The notes under the pieces were generated by a model. It was not told the DNA's origin, searched no databases, and was given only the letters and a program-made list of their open reading frames with translations. This document shows positions 1,047-2,709 of a DNA stretch of 38,022 bases, piece by piece. The DNA is from a virus. Within the stretch, counting starts at the first letter, position 1; every line of letters begins with the position of its first letter. The position numbers and the translations under genes are program-made. Location: positions 1 to 38,022 of IMG/VR virus record IMGVR_UViG_3300049057_000114. One strand, 5' to 3'.

Positions 1047-1879
1047 GCGCCCTCCAAATTAAACGAATGCTGCTCTTGTTTTTCGTAGGCGGCACTATTA
1101 AGCCAAATAATCTCTTTGCGTCTTTTGGCCCCATCGGCAAAGGTTTCCCTGGCCTCCCTGGCCCAGCCCAGACTTTCATAAAACTGGTTTTCATAGCCGC
1201 ATAGAATGACCATGCCTTTAAGTGATTTAAGAAACCCGCAAAGTTTAACGTGGTCTGCGTCGGACATTTCAAATCGGTACCTGTGTTTGTGCCGGCCTCT
1301 AGTTGATTGAACGTATGGCGGATCCACAAAATGCAGTGTCTCGAGGCTATCTTGTTGAGCCATCACTTCACATGCGTCTCGATTTTCAATAACTACGCCG
1401 GCCAATCGTTCAGTGAATGCTTTGATTTGATCGGGGAAATTCGCCCAGTCATGAGCCGGCGTGGTGCCGGACTTATTTGAGTTTGCTCTAAATCCAGTCA
1501 CGCCGAGTTCCAGATTGTGCCCATCCGATCCAAAGCCCATGTAAGAGCGAATTATCAACCGCCTGGCGCGTTCAACGGGAATAGCTGAAGGACGATATGC
1601 AAATTCAAATTCAGCTCTTGAAAATGGCGTAAGGCACAGCAGTCGCTCAAGTCTTTCGGCCTTGGCGTGACACCTTAAAACTTGAAACAGATTTACAATC
1701 TCACCGTCTAAGTCATTGTAAACTTCGGCATAAGAGCGCGCCTTTCGCATAAGAACACTTGCCGCCCCGCCGAAAGGTTCCACATACACTTTATGCGGTG
1801 GGAACCGCTCAATAATCCATGGTGCCAGCAACCACTTGCCGCCAAAGTACCTCAACACTGGTCTGGTCGGTTCAGTCAT
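1043..1879 (-). CDS. D12-class DNA N6-adenine methyltransferase (Dam-like)
   Basis: It transfers a methyl group from S-adenosylmethionine to N6 of adenine in DNA. The 278-aa product has the family's two signature motifs in the D12/Dam order: YFGGK at residues 11-15 (cofactor binding) and DPPY at 186-189 (catalytic). VYVEPFGGAASV (31-42) and VYNDLDGEI (53-61) are the other typical blocks. Length matches Dam (278 aa in E. coli), but whether the target is GATC cannot be told from the sequence. It overlaps the cytosine methyltransferase by 4 bp upstream and rusA by 4 bp downstream. A likely role is protecting phage DNA from host restriction or mismatch repair. Confidence 0.9.
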   Translation of the reverse strand: MTEPTRPVLRYFGGKWLLAPWIIERFPPHKVYVEPFGGAASVLMRKARSYAEVYNDLDGEIVNLFQVLRCHAKAERLERLLCLTPFSRAEFEFAYRPSAIPVERARRLIIRSYMGFGSDGHNLELGVTGFRANSNKSGTTPAHDWANFPDQIKAFTERLAGVVIENRDACEVMAQQDSLETLHFVDPPYVQSTRGRHKHRYRFEMSDADHVKLCGFLKSLKGMVILCGYENQFYESLGWAREARETFADGAKRRKEIIWLNSAAYEKQEQHSFNLEGA

Positions 1880-2709
1880 TTGAGCCCACTCAAGCGCATG
1901 AACGCCTCCCTTGCGACTTGAGGAACAACTCCGCCGCCCAGGGTTTCAATTTGACAGCGCCATTCGGCAGGCCCATCAGCCTTTCCACAAAGCGTGGGTT
2001 CACATATCCCTTCAGGCCAAGGCGACTCAGGTGAAGTGGTAACGAAGAGGAGTACTGGCCATGCCTGTTCGGACTCGAACCATCCTTCCAATCGCGTGCT
2101 GTTGGTGTCGGTAACAGTCCGTGTCTTGCCATATACGCTAGCGTCCCCCTGATTCTTGCGTTTTTGCCGACGGAGCGGTTTCGCCCCCCCCTGTGCGCTT
2201 CCGATGCGACTGGAGTCGGCAACAAATCCCCAGATGCGTTCTCTTTGGTGCCAGGCCGGTCCCACATCACGACATGATAAACTCCCGTATCGTCCCACAT
2301 ACCCATTCTTGGCAAAGTCACTGACGACGGCATCAAGTCCTGACTCAAGTACCCCTGGGACGTTTTCAAAGAAAATGAATTTGGGTCGAAGCTCGCAAAC
2401 AATCCGAACGAATTGCTCCGCCAACTTTGACTCGACATGATCCAGGCCCGTTCTAGTTCCCGCGCGACTGTGGCCCTTGCAAGGCCAGCCTCCGGTGACA
2501 ATGTCGATTTCAACTCCGATGTGCTCTGCTCGCAGTGTTCGCACGTCATCCCAGATTGGGGCTCGATCAATACGGCCCCGTTGCATTTCGCACATAAGTG
2601 CAAGCTGGCGGTAGTGGTCGTTTTCACAATAGGCGACGGTTCTAACCCAAGGGCTAAGTGCTCTGGCGATACCGGCGTATCCTGAAAAAAGATCCAGCCC
2701 ATTCAACAC
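1876..2709 (-). CDS. C5-cytosine DNA methyltransferase
   Basis: It methylates cytosine at C5 in a sequence-specific way. Conserved motifs appear in order over 277 aa: LDLFSGYAGI at 5-14 (motif I), GGWPCKGHS at 73-81 with catalytic Cys77 (motif IV), FENVPG at 114-119 (motif VI), QRERIWGFVAD at 155-165 (motif VIII), and GGGVVPQVA at 258-266 (motif X, more often GNAVPP). The target-recognition stretch (residues ~166-255) is short. Start is GTG 2709, a few bases after the stop of the replication gene. It overlaps the D12 methyltransferase by 4 bp. Its 3' two thirds also encode a second protein in the +1 frame (1890-2438). Confidence 0.9.
   Translation of the reverse strand: MLNGLDLFSGYAGIARALSPWVRTVAYCENDHYRQLALMCEMQRGRIDRAPIWDDVRTLRAEHIGVEIDIVTGGWPCKGHSRAGTRTGLDHVESKLAEQFVRIVCELRPKFIFFENVPGVLESGLDAVVSDFAKNGYVGRYGSLSCRDVGPAWHQRERIWGFVADSSRIGSAQGGAKPLRRQKRKNQGDASVYGKTRTVTDTNSTRLEGWFESEQAWPVLLFVTTSPESPWPEGICEPTLCGKADGPAEWRCQIETLGGGVVPQVAREAFMRLSGLK
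1890..2438 (-). CDS. Overlapping phage protein in the +1 frame of the methyltransferase gene
   Basis: The +1 frame is open from 2702 to 1890. Its C-terminal ~180 residues read like a separate phage protein I recognise from other phage and prophage genomes, often misnamed as a DNA methylase. The order is SFSLKTSQ, LPRMGM, a first LPTP box (SGDLLPTPVASEAHRGGRNR), MARHGLLPTPTARDWKDG as a second LPTP box, and VNPRFVERLMGLPNG near the end. The start is uncertain; ATG 2438 gives 182 aa, without a convincing ribosome site. The part upstream of 2438 looks like mere shadow of the methyltransferase. Function unknown. The alternative is a by-product of codon use in the methyltransferase, but the family-like C-terminus argues against it. 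Confidence 0.55.
   Translation of the reverse strand: MSSQSWRSNSFGLFASFDPNSFSLKTSQGYLSQDLMPSSVTLPRMGMWDDTGVYHVVMWDRPGTKENASGDLLPTPVASEAHRGGRNRSVGKNARIRGTLAYMARHGLLPTPTARDWKDGSSPNRHGQYSSSLPLHLSRLGLKGYVNPRFVERLMGLPNGAVKLKPWAAELFLKSQGRRSCA

Follow-up and report, generated by a model that had tools for sequence, protein, structure and literature searches.

The sequence examined is the 38,022-base IMG/VR virus record IMGVR_UViG_3300049057_000114 (positions 1–38,022), referred to here over its whole length as the window. The virus is probably a tailed phage with a temperate lifestyle, since its genes include those for an integrase, a portal, a scaffold, a terminase, and head closure. Scanning the window for tRNA genes gave none. 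Positions 1–90 hold a short tandem repeat of GTCGCATCCCCG-like units, which ends an ORF that exits the window. Immediately downstream of a cytosine-5 (C5) DNA methyltransferase gene, here called alpha (1876–2709), lies a gene for a D12 adenine methylase (1043–1879), whose start overlaps the alpha stop. An adenine methylase also adjoins the corresponding gene of Salmonella phage S9-5, and this arrangement, together with the start–stop overlap in the window, suggests that the adenine and cytosine methylases form a joint modification cassette. A second gene, here called beta, is nested in the +1 frame of alpha. The features of the two frames are the following.

1876–2709, minus strand: alpha, gene of the putative catalytic subunit of a C5 methyltransferase, with motifs I–VIII and X (PF00145, phrog_363, AlphaFold2 core like that of M.HhaI)
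2479–2484, minus strand: catalytic Pro-Cys of alpha motif IV (GGWPC), both residues invariant across the alpha alignment
2359–2367, minus strand: ENV of alpha motif VI, seen in the sequence; the beta reading there is SLKTSQ
2236–2247, minus strand: QRER, alpha motif VIII; a few codons beyond it, beta takes over from alpha as the constrained frame
1915–1950, minus strand: alpha motif X (ETLGGGVVPQVA), a confident AlphaFold2 helix; in the family, constraint past the beta stop is on alpha only
1890–2438, minus strand: beta, nested +1-frame gene from an ATG (MSSQSW), 182 amino acids; phrog_1008; conserved at +1 wherever a relative has an overlapping alpha
1890–2513, minus strand: beta including its probable start zone (TTG 2511–2513 and TTG 2499–2501, ~6–10 codons before the catalytic Pro-Cys), from the family-wide onset of stop depletion and the start-codon excess
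2211–2222, minus strand: first LPTP box of beta, inside the segment constrained in beta only
2103–2114, minus strand: second LPTP box of beta (LPTPTARDW), inside the same segment
1965–2000, minus strand: methylase motif IX in the beta frame (NPRFVERLMGLP), from a profile match to motif IX of single-chain relatives; both frames constrained

Alpha (277 amino acids, listed start codon GTG) matches PF00145 (E = 2.3e-24, covering profile positions 2–166) and phrog_363 (E = 1.2e-37), and its profile matches M.HhaI at 2e-35. It has the elements that make up a C5 catalytic core, with DLFSG as motif I, the motif IV Pro-Cys in GGWPC, the motif VI ENV in FFENV, and QRER as motif VIII; its motif X (LGGGVVPQVA), with a G instead of the usual N, is still recognizable as such. 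AlphaFold2 predicts a confident catalytic core, matching M.HhaI and M.HaeIII across ~171 columns of the large domain only, then a low-confidence stretch predicted to be disordered (residues 172–244), and finally a confident motif X helix. A preliminary description of this DNA had taken the methylase frame to be intact with all its motifs. The frame is indeed open and carries motifs I, IV, VI, VIII, and X, but motif IX occurs only in the +1 frame, and a recognition domain and motif IX are not found together in the alpha chain. A single-protein search with the alpha of the window found no relatives in viral contigs.

The +1 frame of alpha is open for 270 codons (1890–2702) and, as had been reported, contains two LPTP boxes and a conserved ending (LLPTPVASE, LLPTPTARDW, and NPRFVERLMGLPNG lie near its end). 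This length means little alone, because stops occur at chance level upstream of the beta start zone. More informative are a match of the window's beta to the PHROG family phrog_1008 (E = 1e-19), also matched by the beta of relatives (8.5e-35, 1.6e-24, and 2e-68), and the presence of relatives at the same offset. The box NPRFVERLMG of the +1 frame corresponds to methylase motif IX. The family consensus of this box is NPxWVEWLMGxPxGW; in actinobacterial relatives, a box of the same type lies in the alpha frame ~20 residues before motif X, which is the usual order, and profile comparison links the beta box to this actinobacterial motif IX box with 97% probability. Compared with the family, the window has GG in place of GN in motif X and GA in place of GW after motif IX, and given these two changes its copy might be weakened. 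Modeled alone by AlphaFold2, beta gave a poor prediction (pLDDT 66, pTM 0.28), and neither structure comparison of this low-confidence model nor a profile search against the PDB found a solved fold like it.

Using tblastn with the two frames separately, we found both at the same +1 offset and in the same places in Synechococcus phage S-H1, Microcystis phage Mwe-JY08, and Streptomyces phage Samy (~30–36% identity). A scan of viral contigs with beta yielded 165 loci, phage records and the window included, and the comparison set overall comprised >200 relatives. In three of the 165 loci no overlapping alpha ORF was found; in the other 162, all of them found through beta, beta lies at +1 without exception (162/162). 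Alpha is open past the motif IX of beta in 155 of these 162 loci, and 152 have the standard motif X (GN). After removal of near-duplicates, alpha is open past motif IX in 108/116 loci, where ~6–11% would be expected to be open; three of the eight loci not open past motif IX are those with no overlapping alpha ORF found.

The +1 shift allows each base change to be classed as silent or nonsilent in each frame, so that, with the class in one frame held constant, the effect of the other becomes measurable. We estimated relative rates of amino acid change (omega) from 31 independent related pairs, with limits obtained by resampling pairs, on gap-free, frame-keeping blocks, since over the recognition segment protein-guided alignments gave noisy position counts. 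These figures describe the family, as the window copy has no close relative and selection on it alone is not measurable. Upstream of beta, omega is 0.15 for alpha and 0.56 for beta, the latter serving as background. At motifs VI–VIII the values are 0.26 and 0.47, beta not being clearly under its background. Over the target-recognition segment they are 1.59 (1.21–2.28) for alpha and 0.11 (0.08–0.15) for beta, at motif IX 0.41 and 0.13, and past the beta stop, motif X included, 0.08 and 2.98. This pattern is unchanged at transition weights of 1, 2, and 4. In a profile with 10-codon steps, constraint passes from alpha to beta ~50 codons past ENV, just after motif VIII, and returns to alpha ~20 codons past the start of motif IX. 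These figures and the hand-over profile show alpha to be constrained at motifs I–VIII and X, and beta at the recognition segment and motif IX; residues under double constraint are located at motif IX, and at motifs VI–VIII weakly if at all. The earlier proposal that both frames are selected, mainly over the recognition part, thus holds for motif IX but not for the recognition segment, where the constraint is on beta only. A further measure, the similarity of beta compared with synonymous shuffles of alpha, was discarded as circular, the loci having been chosen by beta.

Stop codons were used as a second source of evidence. Alpha has no stop in the 8,159 codons of the recognition segment from 93 non-redundant loci, against 246–300 expected from shuffling synonymous codons of beta, a set that was preselected for an open alpha and whose unselected counterpart is the 108/116 given above; the third frame of this segment contains 355 stops versus 344 expected. 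Kept stop-free where its residues lack constraint, alpha is, to judge from its stops, translated through the segment as a chain of unconstrained residues. To this extent the overprinting proposed earlier is borne out, both frames being conserved, open, and nonrandomly free of stops. The start zone of beta was located by anchoring the loci at the catalytic Pro-Cys (PC) and testing for stop depletion. Beta-frame stops occur at the chance rate upstream and are nearly gone from just before PC, with two stops at codons PC-10 to PC-6 where 32.5 would be expected. In the same zone start codons are in excess (131 vs. a synonymous expectation of 84), a start codon is found at PC-13 to PC-3 in 88/95 loci versus 73 expected, and in 37 loci, against 23 expected, a Shine–Dalgarno (SD)-like four-mer precedes it. 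The start codon itself is not conserved and the SD support is modest; with ENV as the anchor, no conserved start/SD pair was found for beta. Candidates in the window are TTG 2511–2513, TTG 2499–2501, and ATG 2436–2438, the last being the start chosen previously. The stop depletion, the start-codon excess, and the SD-like four-mers near PC favor internal initiation of beta from weak, variable starts.

The relatives show three layouts, which differ by lineage: recognition segment and motif IX in beta with motif X in alpha, as in the window; recognition segment alone in beta, alpha having both IX and X; and recognition segment, IX, and X all in beta. The second, actinobacterial layout, with IX and X in the alpha frame and a +1 ORF matching the recognition part of the beta profile, was seen in L196, L199, L209, L213, L215, L217, and L219, and likewise in L228, L230, L235, L239, L243, and L247. 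The third layout, with an alpha terminating after motif VIII and a beta that includes the recognition segment, IX, and X, was seen in L003, L041, L073, L140, L150, L168, and L242. In Samy, L041, and L242, where alpha also stops after VIII, the single beta frame with these three elements matches methylase PHROGs. Since its box corresponds to motif IX and since the beta of Samy, L041, and L242 carries recognition segment, IX, and X, beta is most likely part of the methylase. The segment constrained only in beta would be the recognition domain, judging from its position between VIII and IX and from the general layout of C5 methylases, which have a variable region between these motifs (PMC3404938).

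Taken together, the comparative sequence evidence points to a two-polypeptide cytosine-5 DNA methyltransferase encoded by two overlapping genes on the same strand, alpha and the nested +1 beta, a reading to which we assign a probability of roughly 0.84. Alpha would provide the catalytic large domain (motifs I–VIII and X), with a linker that is open but functionally empty where the recognition domain normally sits, and beta would provide the recognition domain and motif IX. Translation of beta, which we infer to take place in the window's phage, would most likely start internally, just upstream of the motif IV Pro-Cys, and its product would bind alpha to give the active enzyme. Such an enzyme would presumably protect phage DNA from restriction, with a presumed DNA specificity of its own.

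The preliminary description had instead regarded the +1 product as a separate phage protein, and had considered that a frameshift might join the two frames. The fact that beta is conserved and open would also be expected if it were an unrelated protein lying over a complete, ordinary methylase, both frames then being under constraint throughout the recognition region. Against this, motif IX is absent from alpha, whose recognition segment shows no constraint and is predicted to be disordered, beta itself holds motif IX and in some relatives also X, and no beta occurs without a methylase frame alongside, except at the three loci in which no overlapping alpha ORF was found. We consider this explanation highly improbable, the +1 product being most likely the recognition and motif IX half of the same enzyme. 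Programmed frameshifting, in which the ribosome would leave alpha for beta once past motif VIII and return ahead of motif X to make one normal chain, would account for the sharp hand-over points, just after VIII and ~20 codons past the start of motif IX, and for the lack of conserved beta start codons. It would require two opposite shifts, and a hop needs neither an alpha that stays stop-free through the entire segment up to motif X nor a beta that is stop-free from ~100 codons ahead of the point at which it takes over; frameshifting is therefore not favored and seems unlikely. Finally, the +1 frame might be a coding shadow, its ORF and motifs an echo of conserved alpha codons and base composition, and it is true that this frame is often open upstream of the beta start zone, where stops are at chance level. 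Yet the frame constrained across the recognition segment is beta and not alpha, and beta stops drop from chance to almost none at one point, so that the substitution and stop tests contradict a shadow at the family level and leave it scarcely credible.

The two-chain methylase thus proposed has counterparts among known enzymes. In M.EcoHK31I, the gene of the large chain also encodes the small chain, in another frame, and the window resembles this gene arrangement, beta being nested at +1 with the same offset in every overlapping locus of the scan. Long overlaps in which both frames are functional are rare and difficult to prove, and to our knowledge only isolated M.EcoHK31I-type cases had been described. 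M.EcoHK31I (YGGCCR) is a two-chain C5 methylase in which the large chain has motifs I–VIII and X and the small chain motif IX, both being needed (PMC3404938). Compared by layout, this enzyme, which is grouped with M.EaeI, has the same distribution of motifs as alpha (I–VIII and X) and beta (IX). A published prediction placed its recognition domain in the large chain (PMC3404938), whereas selection in the alpha–beta family places this domain in the small chain. M.AquI (CYCGRG) is likewise a C5 methylase naturally split into alpha and beta chains; its small chain contains both IX and X, as in the Samy-type relatives, whereas the window keeps X in alpha, and the recognition region of M.AquI is split across both chains, unlike that of the alpha–beta family. 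The phrog_1008 family (DNA methyltransferase), which includes Samy gp50, is the same protein family as beta; unlike in the window, where X is in alpha, the Samy beta has both IX and X and the Samy alpha ends after VIII. Another phage methylase gene with a second protein in another frame is that of the ShiLan domain, an HNH endonuclease (PMC11855218); this is an inserted endonuclease, whereas the second frame of the window would be part of the methylase itself. In the open-access literature we found no published description of the alpha–beta overlap in phages, an absence that weighs little.

The alpha–beta layout also occurs in bacterial genome contigs from Proteobacteria, Nitrospirota, Bacillota, Bacteroidota, Actinomycetota, and others. 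Its occurrence is scattered: of 185 gammaproteobacterial genomes sampled, four in addition to the seed gave a match, and several of these four have beta stops. The odds seem to us about even that these genes represent a class of phage methylases that is old and widespread. In this class, overprinting within the catalytic gene would have given rise to the specificity subunit, the alpha frame would have been retained as a stop-free linker, and motifs IX and X would have settled in either frame depending on the lineage. The family-wide test locates the informative frame position by position, and its prediction is a naturally two-chain enzyme. Annotation of such phage cytosine methylases is only half complete: in the records inspected, only alpha is annotated in S-H1 (L001), ABMM1, and S9-5, only beta in Pseudomonas phage phPA-G (L169), and only a C-terminal piece of beta in Mwe-JY08 (L002); in Paenibacillus phage Jacopo (L166) both nested genes are annotated, as DNA methyltransferase. 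Cloning a recoded version of the annotated frame only would destroy the other subunit. Two loci show additional features. The methylase frame of L005 has, at about 1300–1450, a VVHN just before the catalytic Cys-Gln, which resembles the C terminus of an intein, with motif IV as its insertion site. The prophage copy of E. coli PCP07014 (L252, 1501–2262) is annotated as a pseudogene, and its alpha and beta have premature stops at about one site, near the ENS motif of alpha.
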